Assembly: GCA_003244105.1 (NCBI GenBank)
Contig: QHBK01000008.1
Coordinates: forward strand, 62,001 to 126,000
Reading direction: 5' to 3'
From: Candidatus Eremiobacter antarcticus
GTDB taxonomy: Bacteria > Vulcanimicrobiota > Vulcanimicrobiia > Eremiobacterales > Eremiobacteraceae
DNA: 64,000 bases
The notes below the pieces were generated by a model. The model did no database searches. It was not told the origin of the DNA and saw only the letters and a list, made by a program, of their open reading frames with translations. The translations under genes and the position numbers were made by a program. Below are positions 5,094-63,856 of this stretch, one piece after another. How positions within the stretch are numbered: the stretch's first letter is position 1; every line of letters starts with the position of its first letter.

Positions 5094-5133
5094 AACTGCG
5101 TTTCTGAGGCCGGCCCAGAGGGAATGTTATCTA

Positions 5134-5625
5134 ATGGCCAACCTCATGAAAACCCTCAGCCACGAATACCCCAGCTCCTACGCCTCGGTGAACCAGGCTC
5201 GCCGGCATGTATCAGCGTTCGCTGCGCAGTGCGGCTTGCAGCCACCCGATATCAGCGACATCGCCCTTGCGGTTGGTGAGGCGTGCAACAACGCCGCGGA
5301 GCACGGCCACGTCGCTCACGGCCATTTCAGCGTGCACTGCTCGTTCAACGGCCACTCCTTCGTCGTGCACGTGAAAGATTCGGGCGGCGGTTTCGAACTC
5401 GCCGGCAAGGGCGAACGGATGGAGCCCGATCAGCGCGGCATGCGCGGATTAGGGATTTTCATCATGCGCTCGTTGATGGATGATATCTCATACGCGATCA
5501 CGGATGGCGGGACGTCGGTGCGGCTCACGAAGATCGTCTCGCCGAATCCGGCCACTCATGAGCACAGCCAAGAGCTGTTCGAGCACGACAGCTCGCACCA
5601 TTCGGCGCTGGGCTGCCGAGGCTAA
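5134..5625 (+). CDS. Anti-sigma regulatory factor, RsbW-like serine/threonine kinase
   Basis: A 163-residue single-domain GHKL ATPase. The N box is EACNNAAEH (residues 49-57), G1 is DSGGGF (82-87) and G2 is RGMRGLGI (101-108), the layout of RsbW/SpoIIAB-type kinases that bind a sigma factor or phosphorylate an STAS anti-anti-sigma protein. No partner sigma or STAS gene is adjacent. The start is ATG at 5134 with an AGAGGGA ribosome site 10 nt upstream; ATG at 5146 is possible. It follows hutI by 40 bp and converges on the phosphofructokinase gene, the two stop codons overlapping by 4 nt. The kinase family is clear; its target is unknown. Confidence 0.88.
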   Translation: MANLMKTLSHEYPSSYASVNQARRHVSAFAAQCGLQPPDISDIALAVGEACNNAAEHGHVAHGHFSVHCSFNGHSFVVHVKDSGGGFELAGKGERMEPDQRGMRGLGIFIMRSLMDDISYAITDGGTSVRLTKIVSPNPATHEHSQELFEHDSSHHSALGCRG

Positions 5626-6866
5626 CGGGCGATCGACATCGCTGAGAAGCGCTCCGCAAAAGCTTGCGCCTTCATGCCGGCCGCCGTCGCAAGCGCGGTC
5701 AGTTTCGGCTCGGTGAAGTCATCGAGCTCAAGGCGGATCATGTACTTCCGCCCGACCTCGTAAGCCTCGGTCTTCGTGTCCACCATGCGCACTCGAATGC
5801 GCGCAGTCTGCGGATCGAGCATCTCCTGAAGCGTCACGGGGGTGACCTTGCCGCCTCGCAGCGACACCATCGCACCTGAGCCGCCCGACAAGAGGTAGCG
5901 GACAGCGCCGTAGCCGAGCGTACGGGTGTACTCAACGTCGAAGGCCAGCGGCTTCGCGCAACGCAGTTCGTAGCCGATCTCTTTGCCGACGACCGTCACC
6001 GGCAGACCCATCTCTTGCAGCGACGCGCTCACCGAATTGCTCAGCAGATCCGCCAAATCGACTTCGCTGAGGCGCGCATTTCCGTAGGCATCCCTGGCGG
6101 CGCTTTGCAACGGCTGGGAATCCGCCGCTTGCAACCGCTCGATCAAGCCCTCTGCGACGATCGCGACGCCGTGATCGTGACCGGAAACGCGCCGCTTGAT
6201 CATGCTGCCGATGATCGTATCCCGGACGAGCTGCAACGGCACTCGCTCCTGCCCGAACTCTTCGGGTATGATGGCAAGGGTCGCGCCCGCGGCCTTGCAG
6301 ATGCCGAGCGCAAGAGCGCCGGATTTGCGCCCCATGCTGACCACGACGTACCAACGCGTCGTCGTGCGCGCGTCCTCCATCAGGCTCTCCACGATGTTCG
6401 TGCCGACCGCGCGCGCGGTCTCGAAGCCGAACGTCGGCATGTTATCGGGCAAAGGCAGATCGTTGTCGATGGTCTTGGGGACGGTCGCCACCTGAAGGCC
6501 GCCTCCCGCTGCCTCGGCGATCTTCGCGGCACCGAACGTGGTGTCGTCGCCGCCGATGCAGAGCAGGTGCGTGACGCCGAGCGTGCGCAAAGCCGACACG
6601 CTGTTGGCCAAAGTGGTTGCGTCCCGAGCCGGATTGGCACGTGAGGTGCGCAGGATGGAGCCGCCCAGCCAGTGGATCCTGCTGACCTCTTCGATGCTCA
6701 AGTCCGCTGCGTGCGTCGCATCGCCTTGCGCCAGCCAGTGGTATCCGTCGTAAATGCCTTTCACGCGACAGCCTTCATTGATCGCCTCGATGGTCGCCGA
6801 TGCGATCACGCCATTGATGCCAGGCGCCGGCCCGCCGCCTACCAAGATGCCGAGCGTGGGACTCAT
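5622..6866 (-). CDS. pfp: Diphosphate-dependent 6-phosphofructokinase
   Basis: A 414-residue PFK-family enzyme. It begins with LVGGGPAPGIN (8-18). GGDD at 105-108 and PKTIDND at 130-136 are the residues that mark the PPi-dependent form; ATP-PFKs have GGDGS and lack the lysine. It phosphorylates fructose 6-phosphate reversibly using pyrophosphate, so it can serve glycolysis or gluconeogenesis. Its ATG forms an ATGA overlap with the stop of the small upstream gene, so the two are co-translated. Start and length fit the long PPi-PFK group. Confidence 0.9.
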   Translation of the reverse strand: MSPTLGILVGGGPAPGINGVIASATIEAINEGCRVKGIYDGYHWLAQGDATHAADLSIEEVSRIHWLGGSILRTSRANPARDATTLANSVSALRTLGVTHLLCIGGDDTTFGAAKIAEAAGGGLQVATVPKTIDNDLPLPDNMPTFGFETARAVGTNIVESLMEDARTTTRWYVVVSMGRKSGALALGICKAAGATLAIIPEEFGQERVPLQLVRDTIIGSMIKRRVSGHDHGVAIVAEGLIERLQAADSQPLQSAARDAYGNARLSEVDLADLLSNSVSASLQEMGLPVTVVGKEIGYELRCAKPLAFDVEYTRTLGYGAVRYLLSGGSGAMVSLRGGKVTPVTLQEMLDPQTARIRVRMVDTKTEAYEVGRKYMIRLELDDFTEPKLTALATAAGMKAQAFAERFSAMSIAR

Positions 6867-7635: not shown

Positions 7636-10122
7636 TTACGAACCCGTGGGTTGCGGCGTCGGAGGCTTGAGCGGTTCGCCCACCTTCGTGAAGGTGGTCT
7701 TGCCGTCTTCGACGTCGAGCAGGATGTGGTCGCCGACTTTGAACGTGCCGCGCAGCAGCTCTTCCGATAGCGGATCCTCCACGAACCGCTGGATCGCTCT
7801 GCGCAACGGCCGGGCGCCGAACTGAGGATCCCAGCCTTCCTTTGCGATGAGTTCTTTGGCGGCCTCGGACGCCTCCAAGCTCATTCGCTGGTTCTCCAGC
7901 TCTTTGACGACTTTGGCCAACTCCAATGTGACGATCTGCTTGATCTCGTCCATGTCGAGCTGGTGGAACACGACCACTTCGTCGATGCGGTTGAGGAACT
8001 CGGGCCGGAAGAGATGTTTGATCTCTTCGAGTATCCGGTTCTTCATCCGCTCGTAGCGGACGGTGACGGATCCTTCTTCTTTGATCGGGCGGAATCCGAT
8101 GTCGGCGGTCTTCATGAGCCCAGTCGTGCCCACGTTGCTGGTCATGATGATGAGCGTGTGCTTGAAATCGACGACGCGCCCTTGCGAATCGGTCAGGCGG
8201 CCGTCCTCCAGCACTTGCAGCAACAAGTTGAAGACGTCGGGATGAGCTTTTTCGATCTCATCGAGCAGAACGACCGCATACGGCCGGCGTCGCACGGCTT
8301 CAGTGAGCTGTCCGCCTTCTTCGTAGCCGACATAGCCTGGCGGCGCGCCGACCAGGCGCGAGACGGCGTACTTCTCCATGTACTCCGACATGTCGATGCG
8401 CACCATCGCGTCAGTATCGTCGAACAAGAACTCCGCCAGCGTGCGGGCCAGCTCGGTCTTGCCGACGCCCGTCGGACCCAAGAAGATGAACGAGCCGATG
8501 GGCCGCATCGGGCTTTTCAGTCCGGCGCGAGCCCTGCGGATGGCACGAGTGATCACTTTGATCGCTTCGTCCTGGCCGACGATCCGCTTGTGAAGCGCCT
8601 CCTCCATGTTGAGGAGCTTCATCGTCTCTTCTTCTTTCAGCTTGCTGACGGGGATGCGTGTCCAGGTGGACACGATGTGCGCGATCTCTTCAGGCCCCAC
8701 GACGTTGGTCGTCACGCCTTTGATGTTGCGCTTCTCGCGCCACTCCTCTTCCATCTGCTGTTTCTTCGTGCGCAGCTTCTCTTCGCGGTCGCGGATCTGG
8801 GCGGCTTTCTCGAACTCTTGCGCCTTGATAACCGCCTCTTTCTCGGTGCGCACTTTGCGGATCTCGTTTTCGACTTCGCGGATCTCCGGCGGCAGCGACG
8901 TGGACTGCAGCCGCACGCGCGAGGCCGCCTCATCCATGAGGTCCACGGCTTTGTCGGGCAAGAAGCGGTCGGTGATGTACCGGTCGCTCAAGCGCGCAGC
9001 CGCTTCGAGCGCCTCGTCGCTGATCTTGACGCGATGGTGCGCTTCGTAGCGGTCGCGCAGGCCCTTGAGGATCTCAACGGTCTCATCGACGCTGGGCTCG
9101 CCCACCATGATGGATTGGAAGCGGCGCTCGAGCGCCGAGTCCTTTTCGATGTGCTTCCGGAATTCGTTGAGCGTCGTGGCGCCGATGCACTGCAGCTCGC
9201 CGCGTGCCAGCGCCGGTTTGATGATGTTGCTCGCGTCGATCGCGCCCTCGGCGGCGCCGGCTCCCACGAGTGTGTGCAGCTCGTCGATGAACAGGATGAT
9301 CTCGCCGCTCGCGGCTCTGATCTCGTCCATGACGCGTTTCATCCGCTCTTCGAACTCGCCGCGGTACTTGGTTCCGGCGACGAGGCCCGCCAGATCCAAC
9401 GTGATGACGCGCTTGTCGCGCAACGGTTCAGGAACATCGCCTGAGAGGACGCGCTGCGCCAGGCCCTCCGCGATGGCCGTTTTTCCGACGCCTGGTTCGC
9501 CGATGAGCGCCGGGTTGTTCTTGGTGCGCCGAGACAAGATCTGGATGACGCGCTCGATCTCCATGTTGCGGCCGATGACGGGGTCCAGCTTGCTCTCGCG
9601 AGCCAGCTGCGTGAGATCTCGTCCGTAGGCGTCGAGCGTCGGGGTCTTGCTCTTGCCCTTGGCCGTCGCTTGCGTCTGCGTCTCCGCACCGAGCAAAGAC
9701 GTCGTCTGGACTCTGACCTTCGCCGGATCGACGCCGAGGTTGGTCAGCACCCGAGCGGCTACACCCTCACCTTCGCGGATGAGGCCGAGCAAGAGATGCT
9801 CGGTGCCGATGTAGTTGTGGTTGAGTTGACGGGCCTCTTCAAACGCAAGTTCGATGACGCGCTTGGCCCGCGGGGTGAACACCATCTCTTGCTGCACGGT
9901 TTGCCCACCGCGTCCGACGATCGCCTCAACTTCGGCTCGAACCTTGGCCAGGTTGACTCCTAAAGTTTCCAACACTTTGGCCGCCAGGCTCTCGCCTTCG
10001 CTGATGATGCCGAGCAAGATGTGTTCTGTCCCGATGTAGTTGTTACCGAGACGCTGCGCCTCTTCTTGTGCGAGCACAATCGAACGGCGCGCTCGTTCGG
10101 TGAACGGTTCCCACATGGACAT
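7636..10122 (-). CDS. clpC: ATP-dependent Clp protease ATP-binding subunit ClpC
   Basis: An 828-residue HSP100 unfoldase with the full ClpC architecture: two Clp_N repeats (about 1-145), AAA-1 with Walker A GEPGVGKT, a middle segment with a UVR-like [12 protein letters not shown] motif (ClpC rather than ClpA or ClpB), AAA-2 with Walker A GPTGVGKT, and the C-terminal D2-small domain. It unfolds proteins for ClpP in the cytoplasm. The start is ATG at 10122 with an excellent AAGGAGT ribosome site at 10139-10133. No ctsR, mcsA or mcsB genes sit beside it, and I see neither a CIRCE element nor a CtsR heptad repeat upstream. The 574-bp gap to folK must hold its promoter. Confidence 0.96.
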
Positions 10123-51551: not shown

Positions 51552-51678
51552 AGGAGCGGTTCCCTGACGCGCACTAACTAAAGATATAGGTGACGTTGCT
51601 CCTCGCAATCGTCGCTCTCTCATTCACAGGGTTGTCGTGACGCACAGCGTTCTCGGTGCTGGCGTAGGAGATATCCGG

Positions 51679-54279
51679 ATGCGCAAGGTCCTCGTTTTTT
51701 GTCTGGCCCTCGTCTGGCTCGGCCTGCAAGCCGCGGCACGGGCCGGGGCCGATCAGGATGGTCCCCAGGCTTACAGCAAGTTCATCGAAGGCGCCCAGGC
51801 CCAACATGGCTTGTTCACGTTGTGGCGCAAGAGCGGAAAAGTCTACATCGAGATCTCAAAAGCGCAGCTCGATCGCGATTTCGTCCAAAGCGCCGTACCG
51901 GTCAACGGCTTGGGCGGCTTTGGCATCTACTCGGGCGCTTTCGATTATGCGCCCGCGCGACTGATTCGGTTCACCCGTGCGGACGATAAGATCGCCATCA
52001 TCTGGCCGAACGCGAGCTTTCTCGCCAAACCGGATAGTCCCGCCGAACGCGCCGTCAAGCAGAGCTTTGCGGATTCGGTCGTCGGCCTTGCGAAAATCGC
52101 AGCGGAAGATCAAACGACCGGCCATATCGTCTTCGAGGCCACGCCGTTCTTGAGCGATGTCATCGATATGGCGGACGCGTTGAAGCAGAATTTGGGCACC
52201 AAGCCTGACCAAGCGTATCACCTGAACTCTGAAGAGTCGTATTTCGGCCCCAGCAAGGCATTTCCCAAGAACGTTCTGATCGAGGCGCGCCAGACGTGGG
52301 AGACGAGCGAACCCGCGGTCGTCGACAATGTGCCGGATGCGCGCACCATTCAGTTCCGCATCGATTACAACATCATCGCGCCGCCGGACGACCGCAGCTA
52401 CATGCCGCGGCTCGCAGACGACCGCGTCGGCTTTTTCGACAACCCGTACTTGGATTTCGGCGACGACCGCAAGCGCAACCGTCAAGTGCACTACGCCGTC
52501 CGCTGGAACATGCAGCCGTCCGATCCGAGCAAACCGCTGTCGCCGGCTACTCATCCCATGGTGTTTTATCTCGGCAACACCATTCCGATGGAGTACCGCG
52601 CGCCGCTGCGCGACGGATTGCTCGCTTGGAATGCTGCGTTCGAGCGCATCGGGATCAGCGACGCCGTACAGGTGATGGATCAGCCGGACGATCCGAACTG
52701 GGATCCCGACGATATCCGCTACAATGTCGTACGCTGGCTGACGGAGTCAAACGGCGGGGGATTCGCCGAGGCGCAGATCGTTATTGATCCCCGCACGGGC
52801 GAGGAGTTCCACACGGGCGTATTGTTCGATGCCGATCTCATGTTGGGCGGCAATTCGTTGTGGCGCTATCTCGTTGACCCCACCCGCAACGCGACCGGCT
52901 CGGGCTTCGGCCAACGCGAGGCGGCGTATGCCGCCGGGATGCACGACCAGGCGGTGTTCGGCGGCGTCGCGCTTGACCTCATGGGCCGCAGCAGCAGCTA
53001 CGACATGCCGGAAAAATTCCGCTATGCTTTCTTAAAGAGCCTCATGCTGCATGAAGCAGGCCACGACATGGGGCTGCAGCACAACTTCATCGGTTCGCAG
53101 GCCTACACGGCTAAGGATTTGCAAAGCACGGCCTTCACTTCGCGCTATGGCGTGGCAACGAGCGTCATGGAATACGCGCCGCTGAATTTGTGGCCCAAGA
53201 AGACGCCGCAAGGCGCCTACTGGCAAAGCGTGCTGGGACCATACGACTACTACGCCATCCATTGGGGTTACGCGCGCATACCAGGCGCCCGAACGCCGCA
53301 AGACGAAGTCCCGGTGCTCAACCGCTGGGCCGCCGCTTGGTCAAACCCCCGCTTTCGTTTCGCCTCGGACGAGGACGTCGCATGGTTCAACGGCCACGCG
53401 ATCGACCCGCGCGTCAATCAATGGGATCTCAGCAACGACACGCTGGGCTGGTGCGAGACGCAGATGAAGATCCATCATACCCTTTTCAACACGCTCGACC
53501 GCCGCTTTCCGCGCTACGGCGAGGACTTCGAGGCCGAACGCCAAGCCTTCGGCAGCGTGGCTCGGCAGTATGCCCGCTGCGCGCTCATGACCGAGCACTT
53601 CATCGGCGCTGAGTATCTGTCGCGGGCTCATATGGGCGACCCGCGCTCCGGTGCACCGCTGACGCCGGTGCCGCGGTCTCAGGAGCTGCGCGCCTGGCGG
53701 ATCATGAACGACTCCCTCTTCTCCGACGATGCTTGGCGCTTTTCGCCCGCGATGCTCAACCGCTTGACCTACACGGAGTGGGGCTCGTGGAGCGGGGCGC
53801 AGTGGGCGTACAACCCGCCCGACCGCCATGACTTGCCGGTGGTAGACATCGTGGGCGCCTGGCAGACGGCGGCGTTGAACACCATGTTCCAGCCGCTTGT
53901 CTTGCAGCGGCTGCGCGACACGGCGGTCACCGCCAAGCCCGGGCAGACCATGAGCCTGACCGATCTGTTCGACTGGGCGCAGCAAAGCGTCTACGGCGAC
54001 CTCCGCTCGGCGAAGCTGCGCAGCATCCCGCTGATACATCGAAACCTGCAGCAAAGCTACGCGCGATTGCTGATGCGCCTGGTCAACGCGCCGGCGGAAA
54101 ACACGCCGTACGACGCGCAATCGCTTGCGCGAGCCAAGCTGGCCGCCCTGAAGAACGACATCCAAGCCGCTCAGAAGCGGCCTTTGGATGAGATAACGCG
54201 CGCTCATTTGAGCGATCTTTCTCACCGGATTTCGCAAGGGCTCGATGCGCGGCCGATGCTTACGCAGCCGCGGGTATAG
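51679..54279 (+). CDS. Secreted zinc metalloprotease, DUF5117/metzincin-like
   Basis: An 866-residue protein with a signal peptide (about 1-19). HEAGHDMGLQHNF at residues 458-470 is a metzincin zinc site (HExxHxxGxxH) and VMEYAP some 35 residues later is a likely Met-turn. The long N-terminal half (GLFTLWRKSGKVYIEI, FLSDVIDMADAL) is the DUF5117/DUF5118 region and the C-terminal part carries DUF4953-type sequence. Such proteins sit beside TonB-dependent receptors in many diderms and probably degrade extracellular protein. ATG at 51679 has GGAG 9 nt upstream; GTG at 51637 would hide the signal peptide. Confidence 0.88.
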   Translation: MRKVLVFCLALVWLGLQAAARAGADQDGPQAYSKFIEGAQAQHGLFTLWRKSGKVYIEISKAQLDRDFVQSAVPVNGLGGFGIYSGAFDYAPARLIRFTRADDKIAIIWPNASFLAKPDSPAERAVKQSFADSVVGLAKIAAEDQTTGHIVFEATPFLSDVIDMADALKQNLGTKPDQAYHLNSEESYFGPSKAFPKNVLIEARQTWETSEPAVVDNVPDARTIQFRIDYNIIAPPDDRSYMPRLADDRVGFFDNPYLDFGDDRKRNRQVHYAVRWNMQPSDPSKPLSPATHPMVFYLGNTIPMEYRAPLRDGLLAWNAAFERIGISDAVQVMDQPDDPNWDPDDIRYNVVRWLTESNGGGFAEAQIVIDPRTGEEFHTGVLFDADLMLGGNSLWRYLVDPTRNATGSGFGQREAAYAAGMHDQAVFGGVALDLMGRSSSYDMPEKFRYAFLKSLMLHEAGHDMGLQHNFIGSQAYTAKDLQSTAFTSRYGVATSVMEYAPLNLWPKKTPQGAYWQSVLGPYDYYAIHWGYARIPGARTPQDEVPVLNRWAAAWSNPRFRFASDEDVAWFNGHAIDPRVNQWDLSNDTLGWCETQMKIHHTLFNTLDRRFPRYGEDFEAERQAFGSVARQYARCALMTEHFIGAEYLSRAHMGDPRSGAPLTPVPRSQELRAWRIMNDSLFSDDAWRFSPAMLNRLTYTEWGSWSGAQWAYNPPDRHDLPVVDIVGAWQTAALNTMFQPLVLQRLRDTAVTAKPGQTMSLTDLFDWAQQSVYGDLRSAKLRSIPLIHRNLQQSYARLLMRLVNAPAENTPYDAQSLARAKLAALKNDIQAAQKRPLDEITRAHLSDLSHRISQGLDARPMLTQPRV

Positions 54280-54377
54280 CTAGCGAGGAACCGCAAGCTC
54301 GGTTTGGTCATCGAGGCCGGCGTCATGCGCCAGCCTCTCATTTTGATGTGCCCTCGCCGCGCGCTCTTCACAAAGGA

Positions 54378-54405
54378 TTAACGAAACCTTAACTTTGAAT
54401 TAAAG
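54378..54405 (+). promoter_or_regulatory. Three direct repeats with 11-bp period, Pho-box-like
   Basis: TTAACG-AAACC-TTAACT-TTGAA-TTAAAG: three hexamers, each 11 bp from the next, in an AT-rich patch 97-124 bp before the first receptor gene. Tandem hexamers every helical turn are how PhoP/PhoB-type OmpR-family regulators bind (B. subtilis box TTAACA repeated every 11 bp). Role in phosphate response is inference. Confidence 0.45.
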
Positions 54406-54447
54406 CACCGCCGGCTCACTTGAGGTGTTGCCGGTGCCGCGGTAATT

Positions 54448-54461
54448 CTCGCTCGAGCGAG
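54448..54461. promoter_or_regulatory. 14-bp perfect palindrome before the first receptor gene
   Basis: CTCGCTCGAGCGAG reads the same on both strands and lies 41 bp before the start codon. It could be a dimeric operator or a hairpin in the leader RNA. No T-run follows, so it is not a typical terminator of the protease gene. Confidence 0.35.
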
Positions 54462-54501
54462 CAACCCTAAAACCGCGAGCTTCATCCCAGAAAGGATCTC
54501 G

Positions 54502-57500
54502 ATGTCGGTAAAAGGCTTATGCCGTGCTGGCATTTTGGCGGTCCTGATGCTGGTCTGTCAGGCAACATGGACACTGGCAGGCACGACCGGTACGATCAAC
54601 GGTACCGTGACGACGACGGACGGAACGCCCTTGCAAGGCGCGCGCGTCACAGCATCTTCCGCCTCGCAAACCGCCAGCGCGATATCCGATATTCACGGAC
54701 ATTACACGATGCTTTCCATCGGGCCGGACACCTATACGGTGACCGCCAGCAAGGAAGGCTACGAACCCGTGCAACAGCTCGGCATTACGGTCATCGCCGA
54801 CAACACGGCGACGGTGAATCTGGTGACGCGCAAGCTCGTGGCGACGCTCGGAAAAGTGACCGTGCTCGGCATCAGCACGCCCCTCGTCAGCAAGAGCACG
54901 ATCTCCAACGTGTACACCGTGAGCGACAAGAATCTCACGCACATCCAAGCGCTCGGCGGCGGCAACAACTTGGAGACCGCGTACTCCGCCATCGACTCCG
55001 TCCCCGGCATCTTCCACAACATCAACAACGCCGGTTGGGGACAGACGCTGTACATCCACGGCGGCAACTACACGGAAGTCGGCTACGAATACGACGGCAT
55101 TCCGGTCAACAGAGCGTTCGACCAATACAACGGGGACACGCTTTCAAGCCTCGGCAACCAGCAGGTCCAGGTGTACACGGGCGGCGCTCCGGCAAGCGCT
55201 TCCTCGTCCACCGTTTCCGGGTTCATTAACCAAGTGATCAAGACCGGCACATACCCAGGCTTCGGCTCGATGTCGCTGGCCTTCGGCGCGCCGAGCCTTT
55301 GGAACGGCCAAAAGCTTGAGGTAGGCGGGGCAACGCCGGACAAGCGTTTTACTTACTACGCGGGCGTCTCCAACTACGCTCAGGCCATCCGTTACTTCGA
55401 CCCGTTCAACGGCGGCACGGGCACTGGGCCGATCAACAACCCGTCCATCTACACCAACTTCACCTTTTACGGCGCAGGGACCATACCATATTGCAATAAC
55501 GACGGGTCTTACCCGATTCCAAACGTCAACACCGATGCGGGCTGCTATCCGCCCGGTGTGCCGCTCAACGTCGGCAGCACGTATGTGGGCAGCCCCGCGT
55601 CGCTGAACGACCATGAAGGCGTCCTCAACCTGCACTTCGCCGTTCCACACGCTGACGGCAACCATGACGACATCCAAGCATTGTACAGCAGTTCCTACCT
55701 GCTGCAGCGATACTACAGCAGCACGAACGACGTCGGCGGGCTGCAAACGCTCCTGCGACTGTCAGGCGGCCTCCCGCCGAATTTCAAGGACGGCTATGCG
55801 TTCCCGAACGGCACGCAGTTCTTCCAACCCGTCTCATTCGTGCCGGGCGGCGGCAACAACAACTCAAACCTGCCCTATATCCGCTATGCCTTCCCTAATA
55901 CGCCTGCGCACGAGCCGGACTCCCTCATCCCGCCCGACCTGCGCGACGGCGAGGCAGTCAACGATCAAATACTCAAACTCCAGTACACGCATGCCATTGG
56001 CTCCAACGCGTATCTGCGCGGCTTTGTCTATAGCCTCTATTCGGACTGGCTCCAGACCGCCCCACAGGGCGCGCTGTGGTTCTACGTCTATGGGTTAGGA
56101 CAATTCGGCCAAGGCATCGCTGCTCCGGATTACGAGCTCTCCAGTCACACGCGTGGCGGCGAGCTCCAGTTCGCTGATCAGATCAACGAGCGAAATCTTC
56201 TCGAGGCAACGGCGAACTTCACCACTTCGAAGACCTTGCGTTTCAACAACCGCGAGTGGTTGAACTCGAGCAGAACCAGAGCGACGGTCCTTGCAGACGC
56301 CAACGGGAACTGCTACGACTGGACCACCGGCGATCAGACCTTCTGCGACGACACGACCGCTCAGGGCAGCTTCGGCAATCCAGTGCCCAGCGGCGCGGCT
56401 CCGATCGGCGGAGCGGCTGCAGCAGCCGGGGCGGCATGGCATACGGCCTTCCTCGGTCCGACCGGGACCTACAACACCGTAAAGCCCACGTTCAGCTCGT
56501 TCTCCCTGTCCGACCAGCTCAAAGCTTCGGACCGGGTCTTGTTGAACTTCGGAGTGCGCTACGAGAAATACCACTACAAGCTGGCATCTGCGGAGAGCCC
56601 GGACAACAACTTCTGGTTTCACGCAGCCGCACAAGAATATTGCTACGATCCTGCCAACGGACAGCCGGTCAGGGAGGCGCTCGGCCCGTTTGATTCCCCG
56701 CCCGCCAATCCGTTCAGGGGCTTAGTATGTCCGAACAGCCAGATCACGGGTCAGCCGACCGTGCATCCTGACGGTTTGAACGGTCACCTACTGTTCACCA
56801 ACAAGATCAGCGGCGACATCAACCGAAACGAGCTGCTGCCTCGCTTCGGAGGCACCTATACCCTCAACCAAAACAGCGTGATCCGCTTCAACTACGGGCG
56901 CTATGCGCAGCCCGTCGCGACCGCGTTCACCGAGTATCTGTACGCGCCGGGGGCCGGCCATCAAGCGGCCGCGTTCAACTTCGTGAATTTCTGGGGCCTC
57001 GGCTTCACCAACCCGAAACACGACCTCGGCCCTGTGCTCTCCAACAACTACGACGTCTCCTTCGAGCAGAATCTGCCGAAGATCGACGTGTCGCTCAAGC
57101 TCACGCCGTTCTATCGCAGATCGAAGGGCGAGTACGGTCAGATTCTGCTCGGGCCCAATTTCGCGAGCGCGTTCCCGTACGCGAATCAAACCAGCAGCGG
57201 ACTTGAGTTCCAGATCAACAAGGGCGACCCGAACAAGAACGGGTGGGCCGGTCAGTTGGCATTCACGTACACGCACGCCACCGTGAAGCTGCTCAACACT
57301 CCCAACGGGAAAAACGGCATCGACGTACTCAACACGTACATCGACGGCTTCAATGCTCTGACGGGCGCTGGGAACGTGCAGGGGCTCAAAGGCGCTCCCT
57401 GCTACTTCCAGGATCAAAACCTCGGACCGCTACCCGACTTCACCAACTGCACGGTCTCCGGCAAGACGATCACCGTCAACCCGGTGGGCCTGGCGCAGAA

Positions 57501-58221
57501 CGACATCATCAACCCCTACTACTTCACGCCGCGGCAGCCCGATCTCGATCGCAACGGCTCCTACCTGCCGTACCAGACATTCCCGAACACACCGCCAAGC
57601 AGCGACACCTCAAATCTGTGGCCGTACTTGTTCTCCGGCTTCCTGAGCTACAAGCACGACAAGATCACGGTGACGCCGACGTTCTCGCTGCAGTCCGGCA
57701 ACAACTACGGGGCCCCGACATCGATCTACGGCTACGATCCTCGCACCTGCACGCAAAACGCGGCCAATGCCGGCATTGCGACGGGCAACCCGGGTCAGCC
57801 CAACTTCGTCAGCTGCGGTCCCTCACTCATCGACGGCGGCATTCTCGCCATTCCGAACCCGAGCACTGGTACGTTCGACACCCCTGGCCAGTACCGCCAG
57901 CCTTGGACGTTGAACATCAACGCCCAAATCGCGGCGGACATCAGCCCGCGGGTGACGGCACGGCTCGTCATGGCCAACATCCTCAACACGTGCTTCGGCG
58001 GCAGCAAGACGCCGTGGAGCAACGCGTTCCCATCGGGTCACACCGTGTGCGGCTACACGACGAACTTCAGTCCGGTTTCGAACTTCTACAACGGCACCGG
58101 ACCGAATGACACGGTCGCCAATGTGGGCCGGCCGGTTCCTCAATGGTCGTACGCGTACGCGCCGACGGTGAACCCGTTCAATCCATTCCAAGCGACGATG
58201 CAGCTGCAGTTCAAACTGTAG
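54502..58221 (+). CDS. TonB-dependent receptor with N-terminal carboxypeptidase-regulatory-like domain (first of tandem pair)
   Basis: A 1239-residue outer-membrane protein. Signal peptide 1-26; residues 27-110 are a CarboxypepD_reg-like beta-sandwich (GTINGTVTTTDGTPLQGARV, DIHGHYTMLSIGPDTYTV); a plug follows (YIHGGNYTEVGYEYDGIPVNR, VSGFINQVIKTGTYPG); the rest is a beta-barrel ending in a C-terminal aromatic/leucine residue pattern (MQLQFKL). No obvious TonB box was seen. The architecture is that of Oar-like transporters for peptides, proteins or glycans. ATG at 54502 has AAAGGA 6 nt upstream. A strong terminator follows and a paralogue lies downstream. Confidence 0.9.
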   Translation: MSVKGLCRAGILAVLMLVCQATWTLAGTTGTINGTVTTTDGTPLQGARVTASSASQTASAISDIHGHYTMLSIGPDTYTVTASKEGYEPVQQLGITVIADNTATVNLVTRKLVATLGKVTVLGISTPLVSKSTISNVYTVSDKNLTHIQALGGGNNLETAYSAIDSVPGIFHNINNAGWGQTLYIHGGNYTEVGYEYDGIPVNRAFDQYNGDTLSSLGNQQVQVYTGGAPASASSSTVSGFINQVIKTGTYPGFGSMSLAFGAPSLWNGQKLEVGGATPDKRFTYYAGVSNYAQAIRYFDPFNGGTGTGPINNPSIYTNFTFYGAGTIPYCNNDGSYPIPNVNTDAGCYPPGVPLNVGSTYVGSPASLNDHEGVLNLHFAVPHADGNHDDIQALYSSSYLLQRYYSSTNDVGGLQTLLRLSGGLPPNFKDGYAFPNGTQFFQPVSFVPGGGNNNSNLPYIRYAFPNTPAHEPDSLIPPDLRDGEAVNDQILKLQYTHAIGSNAYLRGFVYSLYSDWLQTAPQGALWFYVYGLGQFGQGIAAPDYELSSHTRGGELQFADQINERNLLEATANFTTSKTLRFNNREWLNSSRTRATVLADANGNCYDWTTGDQTFCDDTTAQGSFGNPVPSGAAPIGGAAAAAGAAWHTAFLGPTGTYNTVKPTFSSFSLSDQLKASDRVLLNFGVRYEKYHYKLASAESPDNNFWFHAAAQEYCYDPANGQPVREALGPFDSPPANPFRGLVCPNSQITGQPTVHPDGLNGHLLFTNKISGDINRNELLPRFGGTYTLNQNSVIRFNYGRYAQPVATAFTEYLYAPGAGHQAAAFNFVNFWGLGFTNPKHDLGPVLSNNYDVSFEQNLPKIDVSLKLTPFYRRSKGEYGQILLGPNFASAFPYANQTSSGLEFQINKGDPNKNGWAGQLAFTYTHATVKLLNTPNGKNGIDVLNTYIDGFNALTGAGNVQGLKGAPCYFQDQNLGPLPDFTNCTVSGKTITVNPVGLAQNDIINPYYFTPRQPDLDRNGSYLPYQTFPNTPPSSDTSNLWPYLFSGFLSYKHDKITVTPTFSLQSGNNYGAPTSIYGYDPRTCTQNAANAGIATGNPGQPNFVSCGPSLIDGGILAIPNPSTGTFDTPGQYRQPWTLNINAQIAADISPRVTARLVMANILNTCFGGSKTPWSNAFPSGHTVCGYTTNFSPVSNFYNGTGPNDTVANVGRPVPQWSYAYAPTVNPFNPFQATMQLQFKL

Positions 58222-58243
58222 TTTCATCCGCTAGCGACAACGG

Positions 58244-58275
58244 ATCGGGCCCTCACGCGAGGGCCCGATTTTTTT
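58244..58275 (+). terminator. Strong rho-independent terminator after the first receptor gene
   Basis: An 11-bp perfect stem ATCGGGCCCTC/GAGGGCCCGAT with a 4-nt ACGC loop followed directly by seven T. It ends the first receptor transcript, so the second receptor needs its own promoter. Confidence 0.95.
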
Positions 58276-58287
58276 ATGCCTCCCCCA

Positions 58288-58303
58288 TGGCACAACCGTG
58301 GCA
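58288..58303 (+). promoter_or_regulatory. Sigma-54-type promoter candidate of the second receptor gene
   Basis: TGGCACAACCGTGGCA agrees with the sigma-54 consensus TGGCAC-N5-TTGCA at every fixed position but one (TGGC for TTGC), and the GG and GC pairs are 10 bp apart. It lies 12 bp after the terminator; transcription would begin near 58314. No enhancer-binding regulator is in the window, so use by sigma-54 is inference; TGGCAC repeats could be operator half-sites instead. Confidence 0.45.
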
Positions 58304-58340
58304 CTTTTGATGTGCGGCGTCGCGTGCGAATGCCCACGTT

Positions 58341-58436
58341 ATGCCACGAGGCGCTAGGCGGCGGGGAAACGCCGTAGGCACTGCGGATAAGCAGAACAGA
58401 TCGCTGTCCGGCGTGTCATGCGTGAAGCCGTGGCAT
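58341..58436 (+). ncRNA. Candidate structured leader RNA of the second receptor gene
   Basis: ATGCCACG (58341-58348) is complementary to CGTGGCAT (58429-58436); the stem gains GC/GC past a 2-nt bulge. Inside are three small hairpins in a row: CGGCG-GGGAAA-CGCCG (58359-58374), CTGC-GGATAA-GCAG (58381-58394), ACAG-ATCG-CTGT (58396-58407). The closing stem ends 30 nt before the start codon, 20 nt before the ribosome site. The layout suits a riboswitch-like element, but it does not match the cobalamin, c-di-GMP or other classes I could recall, and GC-rich DNA forms such stems readily. Confidence 0.35.
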
Positions 58437-58466
58437 TGCGATCAACTGCACCTACGGAGGAACGCA

Positions 58467-61400
58467 ATGTCTACACATCGCCTTCTCCGCACCGCGCTCG
58501 TGGCGCTTTTGGTCGTGGTCTTCCAGGGAACGTGGGCACTGGCAGGCACGACCGGCAGCATCTCGGGCAAAGTGACGGATCAGAACGGCAATGGGATCGT
58601 GGGAGCAAAAGTCACTATCGCTTCGCCATCGCAATCAGAAACAATGACGACGGCGGCGAACGGCTTTTACTCCGCGCTGAATCTCTCACCCGATACGTAC
58701 ACCATCACGACCTCGAAAGACGGATACGATAGCGCACAGGTCTACGGCATCACCGTCCAAGCTGACCAAGTCAGCCGCGCAGACGTCGCGCTGCGAGGCT
58801 CGACGAAAACGCTGGGCCGCGTGACGACAACTGCGACGGCGAGCGTCGTGAGCAGGACCGTGACCGGGGACCTCTACTCGGTCAACTCCGCGGCCATCAA
58901 CTCATACGCCGGCAGCGCGGGCGGCGCCGAGACGCTGTACAGTCAAAACGGCGTCGTGGGATCGCTTCCCGGCGTCGTACGCAATGTCGGCGGCGGCGGC
59001 GGCTACGCGAGCCAAGGCTCCTTGAGCTTGCGGGGCGGAGCCCAAGACCAGGTCGGATACGAACTCGACGGCGTGCCGTTGAACCGCGGATTCGATTTCT
59101 ACAACGGGACCGCATTCGTCACCAACGGCCTCGCCAGCCTGGAAGTCTACACGGGTGGCGCACCCTCGTCTGAGGGCCGCGCCATGTCCGGGTTCATCAA
59201 CGAGACGATCCAGCGCGGCAAGTATCCGGGCGGCGGAGACATCACGGGCGTCATCGGGTCGCCGACGTTCAACCACACGGTGCAAGCCGATGTGTACGGC
59301 GGCACGCCCGACAACCGCTTCACGTACTACCTTGCGACGCTTGCATCCAACGCCGCGTACAACTTCGGCGACCGCAACGATCTGGATAACCAGATCATTC
59401 ACGTGGCACCGAACGATCCCGGCTGTGCGCTCTTCAACGCGGCGGCCACTCCGGCGCTGCAACCAGGACCTCCGCTCAACTGCGCCGTCGCAAACGACCT
59501 GACGCAGCCGCAATCGATCGCGGCCTACGGCTCGACTCCAGGCAACGCCGGCCGCGACACCGTGGCCAACCTGCACTGGACGCTGAATCACAACTCACTC
59601 AACGATGACGTGCAAGCGCTCTACATGGTGGGGACGACCGATTCGTCACCGTTCGGAAAATACGCCAGCTTTCAACTCGACCCATCCATCTACACCGCCT
59701 ACAGCGGCGGAAGAATCGACGCTGCCGGCAGCAATCTGTGGCCTATCGGCACGTTCTACCGCGGCTTCGTCGGACAGCCGTACAATCCGGCCCTGCTGAC
59801 GACGCTCACATGGCCGACGTCGGGCAACTCGACAGGAAGGGTGCCCGCCAATTTCACCGATAGCCAGACCACGCAGTACAGCATCGAGAAGCTGGCATAC
59901 ACGCGCGCCCTGACGCAATCGTCGTTTTTGCGTGTGTACGCATTTTCGATGTACTCAGGCTGGACGCTCGACCAACCGCTCAACGGCATCATCGGCTCGA
60001 GCTTCTATCAGCTGCACGACACCCTTAGGGGCTACACGGGCATCTATCAGAATCAGCTCAACCAGCAGCATCTCTTGAAGCTGACCGGCGATTATTCAAG
60101 AGATCGCACGCTGCGCAGCAACTACTTCAACTACACGGGCGCTGCCCCGACCTGCATCGGCCACGTGGATCCGGCAGACCCGACAAACACGACGGACACC
60201 AACTGCGACGTTCCGGGCCTAGCCGTGACCCACGTCGGCGCACCGTCGAACAATTGGTCCACGGTGGAGCCCGTGAACACGGACTTCGTCATTTCGGACA
60301 CCTTCAAGCCCAGCGAGAAACTGCTGTTCGACCTTGGCTTGCGCTTCGACCAATTCAAGTACAAGCTGATGCCGATGACGATCACCGGCGCGAATGGACT
60401 AGCGATCCAATCAGAGCAGCAGTACGGCGATTGCCTGCACGGCTTCAACTACAGCCCGAGCGATCCGCGCAACATCGGCGACGGAACGCAGAACTGCTTC
60501 GACATCCTGTCCGATCCTACGCTGACGCCCAATGCGCAGGACCGCCCGGGTGCTGCGGCGTGGACCGACGCGCCTGCGGAGCTGACATTTAACACGACCA
60601 GCCCGCGCTTCGGCGTGACGTTCAGCGCGTCTCCCACAGACGTGCTGCGCTTCTCGGTCGGCCGCTACGTGCAACCGCCGAACTCGGCGTTTGAACAGTA
60701 CCGCGACAACCCGGCCTACGGCCCCGGCCGCACGATTCGCCGGCTCAACCAGTTCTACGACGGCTTGGGCTTCCTCGTGGTCCACAACGTGCAGCCTGAG
60801 GACAGCACCAATTACGACCTATCCTACGAGCATGACTTCCGCAGCGGGCTCTCCATGAAGATCACTCCATACTTCCGCAACACGCGTGGTCAGGTGCTGA
60901 ACCTGCCGGTGAACCCGACGACGCCGAGCTTCGTGACGGGCTTCAACTTCGGGGCCGCCCGCATCAAAGGCACGGAGTTCCTGCTGCGCCAGAACCGGGC
61001 GTCTGAGAACGGCCTGTCGGGCACGCTTGCGGTTACCTACACCGATTCGAAGATCCGCTTCACCAAGGGACCCAGCGGCGCTTCGTTTATCGACGTGGTC
61101 AACACGCAGATCTCAGCCTACAACGCGGACCACGGCACGAACTACGCGCTGCTGGATCCCGCGGGCTACTACTCGCCGTCCTTCACGCAAGCGCCCACAG
61201 CTACATCGCCCTCGTACGACGTCAGATGGGTCGCGAACCTCAATCTGAACTATCGCACGAACGGCTTTGACATCTCGCCGACGTTCAATTACCAGTCCGG
61301 AAACCCGTACGGCGATCCGCTGCAATTCCCCGACATCACCGCAGACGTTGCCAACGGACCGGATCCTTACACCAACAGGTTCGACGCCCCCGGTTCGCTC

Positions 61401-61712
61401 AAAGGCCCGTCCTGGTGGACGATGAACCTCGGCGTCTCCCACGACATCGGCAAGAACATGAAGGCGACGGTTTTAGCCACGAACCTGATCACGCGGGTGC
61501 ACAATCACGGTTATCCGTGGGAGCAGCCGACGAGTCAGAACATCGTTGCCTATTCCGACAACTTCTTCTACACGGCCGCTCCGCTCGGATCGTTTGGAGC
61601 AGTGCCTCCAGCGACCCCGACCGCGTACTACGGCGACAACTACTATCCGTACACCGCCGGCACGGCGATGCCGACTCGAGACTTCGTCTTCAGCATCTCG
61701 ACGAAGATCTAA
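58467..61712 (+). CDS. TonB-dependent receptor with N-terminal carboxypeptidase-regulatory-like domain (second of tandem pair)
   Basis: A 1081-residue paralogue of the preceding receptor, about 160 residues shorter. Signal peptide 1-26; CarboxypepD_reg-like domain with TGSISGKVTDQNGNGIVGAK and NGFYSALNLSPDTYTI; plug with SLRGGAQDQVGYELDGVPLNR and GFINETIQRGKYPGGG; beta-barrel ending MPTRDFVFSISTKI. The two leaders share GTTG-x-I-x-G and DTYT motifs, so they arose by duplication. ATG at 58467 has a GGAGG site 6 nt upstream. Likely an importer of peptides or glycans through the outer membrane. Its own promoter and leader suggest separate regulation from its twin. Confidence 0.9.
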   Translation: MSTHRLLRTALVALLVVVFQGTWALAGTTGSISGKVTDQNGNGIVGAKVTIASPSQSETMTTAANGFYSALNLSPDTYTITTSKDGYDSAQVYGITVQADQVSRADVALRGSTKTLGRVTTTATASVVSRTVTGDLYSVNSAAINSYAGSAGGAETLYSQNGVVGSLPGVVRNVGGGGGYASQGSLSLRGGAQDQVGYELDGVPLNRGFDFYNGTAFVTNGLASLEVYTGGAPSSEGRAMSGFINETIQRGKYPGGGDITGVIGSPTFNHTVQADVYGGTPDNRFTYYLATLASNAAYNFGDRNDLDNQIIHVAPNDPGCALFNAAATPALQPGPPLNCAVANDLTQPQSIAAYGSTPGNAGRDTVANLHWTLNHNSLNDDVQALYMVGTTDSSPFGKYASFQLDPSIYTAYSGGRIDAAGSNLWPIGTFYRGFVGQPYNPALLTTLTWPTSGNSTGRVPANFTDSQTTQYSIEKLAYTRALTQSSFLRVYAFSMYSGWTLDQPLNGIIGSSFYQLHDTLRGYTGIYQNQLNQQHLLKLTGDYSRDRTLRSNYFNYTGAAPTCIGHVDPADPTNTTDTNCDVPGLAVTHVGAPSNNWSTVEPVNTDFVISDTFKPSEKLLFDLGLRFDQFKYKLMPMTITGANGLAIQSEQQYGDCLHGFNYSPSDPRNIGDGTQNCFDILSDPTLTPNAQDRPGAAAWTDAPAELTFNTTSPRFGVTFSASPTDVLRFSVGRYVQPPNSAFEQYRDNPAYGPGRTIRRLNQFYDGLGFLVVHNVQPEDSTNYDLSYEHDFRSGLSMKITPYFRNTRGQVLNLPVNPTTPSFVTGFNFGAARIKGTEFLLRQNRASENGLSGTLAVTYTDSKIRFTKGPSGASFIDVVNTQISAYNADHGTNYALLDPAGYYSPSFTQAPTATSPSYDVRWVANLNLNYRTNGFDISPTFNYQSGNPYGDPLQFPDITADVANGPDPYTNRFDAPGSLKGPSWWTMNLGVSHDIGKNMKATVLATNLITRVHNHGYPWEQPTSQNIVAYSDNFFYTAAPLGSFGAVPPATPTAYYGDNYYPYTAGTAMPTRDFVFSISTKI

Positions 61713-61732
61713 ACCGTCCGTCCCCCCACAGC

Positions 61733-61771
61733 AGCGGCCGCCCTCTCCCAAGGGCGGCCGCTTTCCTTTCC
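61733..61771 (+). terminator. Terminator hairpin after the second receptor gene
   Basis: A 12-bp perfect stem AGCGGCCGCCCT/AGGGCGGCCGCT with a 6-nt loop, followed by TTCCTTTCC. It lies in the 65-bp convergent gap with the S9 peptidase gene; the pyrimidine tail is on the plus strand. Confidence 0.8.
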
Positions 61772-61777
61772 ACTGTG

Positions 61778-63856
61778 CTAGCGAGGCATGCGTGCGAACA
61801 AGAAGGTGGATGCAGCGGAATAGAGCCTGAGCACATCGCGATAGAGCAGATTTTCATGGTTTTCGTTGGGAAAGACGAGCGTCTGCACATCGACGCCTTG
61901 GTCGCGCAGACGAGTCGTCAAATCGTTCCCTTGCGAGAAAGGAACGTTGCGGTCGTCATCGCCCTGCGATAGAAACACAGGTGAGGACCAACTGGCCAAC
62001 GATGCTTCGGGGGATGCTTCGTACGCGACGCGCCGTTGCTCGCTAGTCCCCAACTTCTTGTGAGCATACGAGTCATAGTAGCTGACCCAGTTATGAACGC
62101 CAGCGAAATCCAATCCGGTTTTGAAGGTGGCCGAATCGCGCGCCAACCCCAATGCTGTCAAATAACCCCCGTACGAAAGGCCATACAACGCGATCTTATC
62201 CAGGTCAACGTCGGCTCTTCTCTGGAGAAAGCGCGCCCCGGCCAGCACATCTTGGTATTCGCTAGCGCCGCGGGCGCCGACGTTTTTGGCCTCTCGAAAA
62301 TCGTGGCCGTACATGATGCCGCTGCGGTAGTTGATGGAGAGCACCACGAAGCCATGGTTGGCGAAGTACTGGTTCAGCTCGTACAGGTCGGTGTAGACGT
62401 CCATATAGTGGAACCCCAGCAACATCTGCCGCTCGGAACCGCCATGCGTGAATATCAATGCGCGGTGTCTGCGCTGACCATCGCGCGGGAGAAAAAGCTG
62501 TCCGAACAGATGTAGACCGTCGGGCGCCGTGAACTGCACGAGCAGCGGTTTCACGAACCGATCACCAGCGAACTGCGACGGTATCGGCACCGCTTGCATT
62601 CGTGCCGGAGCACCCAGCGGATGAGTCACCACGGCTGTGGGCACTCTCCAGCCTGCTTCGATGTCCGCGAAGCCCGCTGCCGTCGCCACAGGCGACCATT
62701 GATTTGCAACGGACCTGCCGACCGGGCGCTGCTGTCCTTCTAAACCGACTCGCCAGATGTGGCGAGCGTTGAGATCGTCTTGGTTGCTGGAGTATACCAG
62801 GGATCGTCCGTCGAGTGCGTGCGAGACGGTTTCGATTTCGAATTTCCCGCGCGTGAGCAGCCGCGCGGCTCCGCCGCGCGCCGGCACCGCGTAGAGATGC
62901 CGCCATCCGTCGCCCTCCCATGTGAAGACCAGATGATCGGGGCGTAACCACCAGAGCTGGTCGCTGTTGTCGCTCTCGTAGAATTGAGATCCGATGCCGC
63001 GCGCAGCGCGCCACACTGCATGCGCTTGCATCGTGCGAGCATCCACCACCCAGATGGACCACGGCTCGTGCGACGGCGCTGAATAAGAAGACTCGTCTTC
63101 TCGGTTGCCGGGTTGGCGGATAAAAGCCAGCCGCGTGCCGTCCGGCGACCATGTAGGATAATCGTCGATCGCGAAGTCGGGCGCCGCATAGGCGAGCATC
63201 TTCGATCGGATATCGTACACCACGATGAACCGGTGGTCGTCGCGATCGTTGGCGAAGGCGATTTTTGATCCGTCCGGCGACCACATCGGAATGCCGACAG
63301 CTCCACGAATGTGGAAAGGTATCTGAGGGCGGCCGATGCGATAACCTGAGGACAGGCGCCTGAGCGACGCTGTGTACAGCTCGTCGCGGTTGACCCAGGC
63401 GACGACGTCACCCCTCGGCGAGATGCGCGGGTACGTCCCTTCACCAATGCGCAGCGTTCGGCCGCGTTCCATATCGACCAAGAATATAGTTCGCCTTGGG
63501 GGCTCGGACAAAGAACGCGGATTCACGTTGTCTCCGCCGGTGTCGCTGCCCGATCCGCCGCGCATGTAGATCATGGCGTGATCGCCGGGCAAGAAGCTCA
63601 CCGAATCCAGCTCTTGGCCGTCATCCGCGTCGTAGCTGGTTACCTTGCGCATGTGCGTGCCGCGGTCGGTGCTGAGGTACAAATTGCGACGGCCTCGAAT
63701 CGCGACTTCCCACACGAGCGCGCGTCCGTCAGACGCGGCGCTCAAATTCGAGACGAAAGGTGCGCATAACGCGGCGTCGATGCCGAACTCTGGCGTCGGT
63801 TGCGTCGAAGCCGCCATCGGTGAGAGCGCGATTATGATAACAGCCACGAGATGCAT
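61778..63856 (-). CDS. S9 family peptidase (prolyl oligopeptidase/dipeptidyl-peptidase-like), exported
   Basis: A 692-residue protein with a short signal peptide, an N-terminal seven-bladed-propeller-type domain (WD/PD40 repeats such as SPDGSKIAFAND and SPDGTRLAFIRQ) and a C-terminal alpha/beta hydrolase. GLSYGGY places the nucleophile at Ser561; GDDDRNVPF and NENHENLL give Asp and His. It would trim peptides in the periplasm. It is convergent with the second receptor gene. Start ATG at 63856. The 144 bases beyond it to the window end hold no gene I can support. Confidence 0.92.
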   Translation of the reverse strand: MHLVAVIIIALSPMAASTQPTPEFGIDAALCAPFVSNLSAASDGRALVWEVAIRGRRNLYLSTDRGTHMRKVTSYDADDGQELDSVSFLPGDHAMIYMRGGSGSDTGGDNVNPRSLSEPPRRTIFLVDMERGRTLRIGEGTYPRISPRGDVVAWVNRDELYTASLRRLSSGYRIGRPQIPFHIRGAVGIPMWSPDGSKIAFANDRDDHRFIVVYDIRSKMLAYAAPDFAIDDYPTWSPDGTRLAFIRQPGNREDESSYSAPSHEPWSIWVVDARTMQAHAVWRAARGIGSQFYESDNSDQLWWLRPDHLVFTWEGDGWRHLYAVPARGGAARLLTRGKFEIETVSHALDGRSLVYSSNQDDLNARHIWRVGLEGQQRPVGRSVANQWSPVATAAGFADIEAGWRVPTAVVTHPLGAPARMQAVPIPSQFAGDRFVKPLLVQFTAPDGLHLFGQLFLPRDGQRRHRALIFTHGGSERQMLLGFHYMDVYTDLYELNQYFANHGFVVLSINYRSGIMYGHDFREAKNVGARGASEYQDVLAGARFLQRRADVDLDKIALYGLSYGGYLTALGLARDSATFKTGLDFAGVHNWVSYYDSYAHKKLGTSEQRRVAYEASPEASLASWSSPVFLSQGDDDRNVPFSQGNDLTTRLRDQGVDVQTLVFPNENHENLLYRDVLRLYSAASTFLFARMPR

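Follow-up and report, generated by a model that had tools for sequence, protein, structure and literature searches.

Two tandem TonB-dependent receptor genes flank the element studied here. They belong to the window, by which we mean the whole 64,000-nt stretch of DNA that was analysed; it comes from contig C8 of a genome of 2.64 Mb (G000) that is 95.8% complete. The upstream receptor gene (54502-58221) follows a met-zincin protease gene (51637-54279), and the downstream receptor gene (58467-61712) is followed by a convergent S9 peptidase gene. With its met-zincin protease (DUF5117/DUF4953), its two receptors and its S9 peptidase, the region 51637-63856 looks like a peptide-uptake cluster. The strong terminator and the ribosome site between which the original prediction had placed the element are both present, and the region contains the following features:

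58242..58271, + strand: terminator-like stem-loop with a T run at the end of the upstream receptor gene (13 pairs, 8 of them G-C, then TTTT)
58288..58304, + strand: predicted operator pair 1, TGGCAC-AACCG-TGGCAC (GGCA-N7-GGCA, an 11-bp direct repeat), the sequence proposed as a '-24/-12' element
58331..58347, - strand: predicted operator pair 2, TGCCCAC-GTTA-TGCCAC (TGCC-N7-TGCC), present also in two receptor leaders of genome G001
58361..58368, + strand: GCGGGGAA box, conserved in the leader comparison, 30 nt from the start of pair 2
58386..58391, + strand: GATAAG, a putative -10-like element, 17 nt past GGGGAA
58399..58443, + strand: hairpin GATCGCTGTCCGGC...GCCG-GGCA-GCGATC (MFE -20.6, z -2.20, 31 of 1000 shuffles as good)
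58456..58461, + strand: Shine-Dalgarno sequence GGAGGA, read from the sequence
58467..61712, + strand: TonB-dependent receptor gene starting with ATG (1081 aa; CarboxypepD_reg, Plug and beta-barrel, with a Plug score of 23.2 bits, just below the cut-off of 23.9)

Pair 2 is the repeat of pair 1 on the opposite strand, 42 bp away from core to core. The exact hexamer GTGGCA/TGCCAC, which had been counted four times, occurs in three copies in the leader (58298, + strand; 58342, - strand; 58430, + strand), the supposed fourth being a related ATGGCAC at 58287. Over the whole window GTGGCA is not enriched (21 copies for 36.8 expected), and RTGGCAC-N4-GTGGCAC, with up to two mismatches allowed, is observed once, without mismatch, for 1.10 expected. 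The GCGGGGAA box is probably a -35 region or part of an activator/promoter surface; an ECF-type -35 (GGAAC) is a further possibility that was considered for it. GATAAG, followed by a conserved AGAA at 58393-58396, is a poor -10, its sixth position not being T, and a standard scan for sigma-70-like promoters over positions 57000-59500 found nothing.

Pair 1 had been read as part of a sigma-54 promoter. The sigma-54 consensus is TGGCAC-N5-TTGCA, with the GG and GC of the -24/-12 element 10 bp apart, and TGGCACAACCGTGGCA at 58288-58303 differs from it at one position (TGGCA instead of TTGCA). Such a match is indeed present, but it is the only one observed with at most one mismatch, where 1.19 are expected per window by chance. 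The search for rpoN that had been suggested, made with the PF04552 profile, gave no match in the 31 genomes of the class (the own genome, 95.8% complete, 13 of the same family and 17 of the same class), the same profile matching in 4 of 14 named control genomes (E. coli, B. subtilis, C. vibrioides, B. ihuae). As to sigma-54 activators, the own genome has weak and partial PF00158 matches only, the best (E 1.7e-7, over part of the model) lying inside an 828-aa frame at window positions 7636-10122 that is presumably Clp-ATPase-like; this profile is not specific, because it matched in all 61 genomes searched and in all 14 control genomes. With rpoN found in none of the 31 genomes, PF00158 matches weak and partial and the -24/-12 match at chance level, we rejected the sigma-54 promoter and leave it practically no probability, barring an rpoN gene in the missing part of the assembly or one diverged beyond the reach of the profile. 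A single strong activator match was seen among the 61 genomes (L074, G043:C48:139028-139384, E 8.5e-48), which may be a real exception or a contamination.

When 26 receptor leaders were compared pairwise, that of the window stood out only with those of G001:C17 and G001:C66 (z 6.0 with none of 100 shuffles as good, and z 3.2 with one of 100; next best 0.9). The three leaders have in common TGCCCAC-N-T-N3-GCC-N-CG, GCGGG(G/A)AA and ATAA-N2-AGAA in a fixed register: GCGGG(G/A)AA stands exactly 30 nt from the start of TGCCCAC, so that the spacing of pair 2 to GCGGGRAA is identical in all three, and ATAA-N2-AGAA stands 25-26 nt from the start of GCGGG(G/A)AA, the order from box to -10-like element and their spacing of 16-17 nt being alike throughout. 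Ungapped columns identical in all three number 20 of 38, versus 12-14 in 20 shuffles. The block includes two TGCC 11 bp apart in the window and in G001:C17, and in G001:C66 a TGCC and a CGCC 11 bp apart with another TGCC 11 bp before. Upstream of the block, GGCA-N7-GGCA is found in the window and in G001:C66, in the latter also in the full form TGGCAC-N5-TGGCAC, and the two pairs are 42 bp apart in the window and 44 bp apart in G001:C66. Altogether the three leaders hold five GGCA/TGCC pairs at 11 bp, versus 0.054 expected, in a test run after the repeats had been noticed; none of 2000 shuffles reached this number, and no half-site spacing gave five pairs in any of them. Half-sites repeated directly at 11 bp, the arrangement of OmpR/PhoB-type operators, are thus found in the three leaders. 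The gene upstream of the leader differs at each locus, namely a receptor gene in the window, a gene for a small secreted-looking protein at G001:C17 and winged-helix and HD-domain genes at G001:C66, and therefore the block travels with the receptor gene and not with a syntenic stretch.

The full block is confined to these three leaders, two of them from one genome (G001), and the pattern, which was derived from the same three leaders, was found nowhere else in 148 genomes. Relaxed to three mismatches, it gave 15 extra matches in 61 genomes versus 37 for the reversed control and was discarded as noise. The exact TGGCAC-N5-TGGCAC has 9 copies in the 14 family genomes, its reversed control 8, and over the 61 genomes the counts are 36 and 27; the repeat was dropped as a regulon marker and is not specific, because these counts are near those of the control and some copies lie at integrase or tRNA sites. 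Further genomes of the class also contain TGGCACCGTTGTGGCAC, and around position 1501 of L109 and L111 it marks the 3' end of an integrase gene of phage type that neighbours genes for tRNA-Gln and tRNA-Glu, a position seen for two of the eight inspected copies of TGGCACC-type variants; the copies in L109 and L111 are possibly integrase arm sites. Among 39 further receptor leaders the 11-bp pair was found three times, as often as an 18-bp spacing, which is suggestive only of a wider use before other receptors.

The receptor paralogs themselves have different histories in their coding regions and in their leaders. The receptor of G000:C17 (L058) is 87% identical to the window receptor protein, and the identity drops to background at the start codon, the two leaders being unlike (z -0.6). 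By position, G000:C17 is the ortholog of G001:C151, with the same gene order (acyl-CoA dehydrogenase, sucC and sucD, assigned by reading the translations, then the receptor) and a common leader (z 7.8). The coding tree instead groups G000:C17 with the window gene (100/100) and G001:C151 with G001:C66 (99/98), and over the first 325 residues the grouping of G000:C17 with G001:C151 was rejected (AU p 3.6e-8), in a tree that leaves the three G001 genes unresolved among themselves and in which G001:C151 is truncated at about 314 residues, where its contig stops. Leaders and coding regions thus follow different trees across two genera. Since the 87% identical paralog has an unrelated leader that it shares with its G001 ortholog, the coding regions appear to have been homogenised and the promoters kept apart; the simplest account would be within-genome gene conversion that spares the promoters, the alternative being parallel duplications with promoter capture.

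A different box precedes the first receptor gene. The family of the window has a phoB-phoR-phoU-pstS-like cluster (PhoU in 13 of 14 genomes, PBP_like_2 also in 13 of 14; phoB and phoR assigned by reading the translations), and TTAA units 10 or 11 bp apart stand before several of its pstS genes; TTAA-N7-TTAA was seen in 12 of the 17 loci inspected, in some of them without being placed relative to a start. The first receptor gene (start at 54502) is preceded by ATTAACGAAACCTTAACTTTGAATTAA at window positions 54377-54403, with three TTAA units at 11-bp intervals, and because this resembles the pstS boxes of the family, the first receptor (54502-58221) may be phosphate-regulated. No TTAA is present in 58277-58466, and a Pho-type box was rejected for the second receptor. 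With a TTAA box before one gene and a TGCC repeat before the other, the tandem receptors appear to answer to different regulators that share a DNA-binding fold.

Regulators of this fold were then considered at their own genes. In G000 and G001, 22 loci surrounding Trans_reg_C genes were scanned, and 11-bp TGCC pairs were found directly before small genes, the products of which match Trans_reg_C alone. In a set of 46 Trans_reg_C genes, picked by a profile built from three of the small proteins and cleared of duplicates and of frames cut by the locus end, a TGCC pair lies between -250 and +60 of all five small receiver-less genes versus one of 41 full-length genes (Fisher 4.4e-6, or 3.4e-5 minus one of the two small genes that come from one genus; the split into small and full-length was drawn after a first look at the data, and for the full-length gene L164 the stretch searched was only 124 nt). 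TGCC is therefore the half-site found both in the three receptor leaders and in five small regulator promoters. At L219 and L220 the automatic start codon is too early, and the pair counted for L220 is a different one; read from the sequence, each has two pairs, 44 bp apart, before a likelier ATG (ATGAAAGTC). A distance of 42-44 bp between two pairs is seen in the window and in G001:C66, and also in front of small regulator genes in G002 and G012. Upstream of the G001:C66 receptor, which carries the block, at a distance of about 1 kb, is a small regulator gene that has a pair directly after TATAAT; its repeat at -181 is, by eye, within a terminator-like hairpin, and only the one at -65 was therefore given weight. 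A Trans_reg_C-TPR gene is convergent with the G001:C17 receptor gene; it is absent from the 46-gene set, and no 11-bp TGCC pair was found in its examined locus. When the G001:C66 and G000:C7 proteins were combined in a profile, full-length matches came only from those two genomes, which supplied the profile with its rows, the next matches having mostly ordinary response-regulator frame lengths, together with the small ones of G002 and G012. The short Trans_reg_C frame of G004:C80 was rejected, because its translation shows a full response regulator truncated where the contig stops.

An array of operator half-sites had been the alternative offered in the original prediction, and the 11-bp register, the shared leaders and the small regulator genes all argue for it. 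We propose, with a probability of about 0.6, that 58288-58396 is an operator array and promoter for a winged-helix protein of the OmpR/PhoB type (Trans_reg_C), most likely one of the small receiver-less proteins. Two TGCC half-sites 11 bp apart would seat two monomers on one face of the helix, and the second pair lies 42 bp or four turns off on the opposite strand. The bound protein would activate or repress a promoter made of the GCGGGGAA box and the GATAAG element, and the transcript would start near 58397, so that a stable hairpin of 45 nt would precede a ribosome site that stays open. The presumed readers would also be autoregulated, their own genes carrying the same repeat.

Similar arrangements are known for several families. 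ArcA boxes are described, in the accessible part of PMC3798270, as direct repeats 11 bp apart from centre to centre, often with extra repeats, and like these and PhoB boxes the window has 11-bp direct repeats, the extra ones of ArcA being about one or two turns off. The window differs from such boxes in its half-site, which is TGCC and not of the TTAA type found before pstS in the family, in the opposite strands and 42-bp distance of its two pairs, and in its likely reader, which would have no receiver domain. For SARP-type activators, which combine an OmpR-type DNA-binding domain with a BTA domain, the portions consulted of PMC10936776 give direct repeats spaced 11 or 22 bp and near the -10, the 11-bp spacing being that of the window repeat; the small proteins here, however, match Trans_reg_C alone, and the repeats stand farther upstream of the -10-like element. 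For ChvI, what could be consulted of PMC9731502 gives N-GCC-N8-GCC as the consensus in Sinorhizobium meliloti, with core letters and spacing equal to those of the window repeat, and TTGC-N3-GCAA as the motif of Caulobacter, in which ChvGI acts on the TonB-dependent receptor ChvT through an sRNA; an 11-bp putative motif is reported for ChvI in the accessible text of PMC3687685. ChvI is, in contrast, an alphaproteobacterial full response regulator, and the likeness is one between the window and a published consensus. By analogy, the element would work like ArcA, SARP and ChvI sites; we do not claim that it belongs to a ChvI or PhoB regulon.

The ChvI consensus also suggests that a phosphorylated full-length response regulator of a ChvI-like kind could read the operator and control the small winged-helix genes as well. 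Seven of the nine Trans_reg_C matches of the own genome are in open frames of 244-278 aa, a length like that of full-length regulators, which agrees with such a reader, but the repeat precedes only one of 41 full-length regulator genes, and we hold this version to be rather doubtful, though still one to be reckoned with. Far less probable is that the block is a functionless inheritance between paralogs. The three receptors do fall in one clade of five (99/99); against this, the identity of their leaders is limited to short blocks with unrelated spacers in front of proteins that are 56-62% identical, the leader of the closest paralog (87%) is unrelated, and the repeat also precedes regulator genes.

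Compared with the operator reading, control through RNA folding, the leader being a riboswitch, a thermometer or an sRNA target, has to account for a conserved block that lies upstream of the folded part. The 8-bp arms that had been proposed to close a structured leader, ATGCCACG at 58341-58348 and CGTGGCAT at 58429-58436, are present and span 96 nt, but 603 of 2000 shuffled versions of the leader also hold a perfect 8-bp inverted repeat, and the two related leaders reach 6 of 8 pairs at best, i.e. have no such stem. The stem would pair an operator half-site with a half-site-like stretch inside the 58399-58443 hairpin. The fold of 58300-58470 is ordinary (z -1.45, 17 of 200 shuffles equally good), and the 100 nt around the closing stem, a stretch tested because it holds the stem, gave z -2.94, with one of 300 shuffles folding as well. 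Neither the Rfam search nor the covariance check suggested at the outset favoured the RNA reading: no covariance model matched the leader, even at E up to 1, so that a riboswitch or other Rfam family was set aside, and the RNAalifold consensus folds of the leaders are weak (covariation terms -0.55 and +1.11). What stands of the multi-hairpin leader is one hairpin, at 58399-58443, different from those originally drawn. Hairpins at the matching place of the two related leaders have z -5.99 and -2.99, and the joint sum for the three is -73.9 versus -43.9 (sd 4.7) in shuffles, lower than in all 1000, for a segment delimited after the hairpins had been seen. In each leader the hairpin begins at most 2 nt from AGAA and leaves 23-25 nt between its end and the start codon, and the stretches immediately upstream give z -0.97, -0.06 and -1.03. 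In favour of folding, the G001:C17 leader taken whole has z -3.88. The three hairpins differ in sequence and size, and the ribosome site lies outside them. Among 24 receptor leaders no consistent folded region was found (mean z -0.88 to 0.16 in 50-nt windows), and a 5' hairpin general to receptor leaders was discarded. Taken together, we regard RNA-based control as improbable. The hairpin of the window would rather be a generic 5' stem-loop near the predicted 5' end of the transcript, its role probably being the protection of the mRNA. The ompA mRNA carries a protecting 5' stem-loop, and the window likewise has a hairpin before the ribosome site of an outer-membrane protein gene, downstream of a predicted transcript start. 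Stem-loops and 5' UTRs are among the mRNA-protecting features named in the part of PMC7509114 available, in which ompA is an example of a stable mRNA.

Under the operator reading, a testable cis-trans pair takes the place of the sigma-54 or riboswitch idea in a lineage in which no rpoN was found: half-site and spacing are specified and candidate regulators named, for a phylum most of which is uncultured. The class of switch is ordinary; the lineage is not, and the evolution has a curious twist. A bolder version, which we advance tentatively and think possible without expecting it to hold, is that a family of small receiver-less DNA-binding proteins of the OmpR fold, each autoregulated through TGCC-N7-TGCC, drives one receptor paralog of a set in Eremiobacterota, while gene conversion homogenises the coding regions and promoters remain particular to each locus. 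Conversion acting on coding regions and leaving promoters in place would then put a near-identical receptor under different signals, a TTAA-type and perhaps phosphate box at one locus and a TGCC box at another. Receptor paralogs with differing coding and promoter histories bear on how surface receptors are re-wired. No description of control of this kind was found in the literature on Eremiobacterota covered by our search, subscription journals lying mostly outside it.

The search for Trans_reg_C genes gave none on the contig to which the window belongs. The candidate small winged-helix genes of the own genome are on other contigs, at G000:C7 and G000:C19, and their products would act in trans. 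At the first of these loci (L221), the small Trans_reg_C gene (4178-4687) lies end to end with a gene for a TPR protein (4692-5858), which resembles, by eye, the Trans_reg_C-TPR protein encoded convergently with the G001:C17 receptor.
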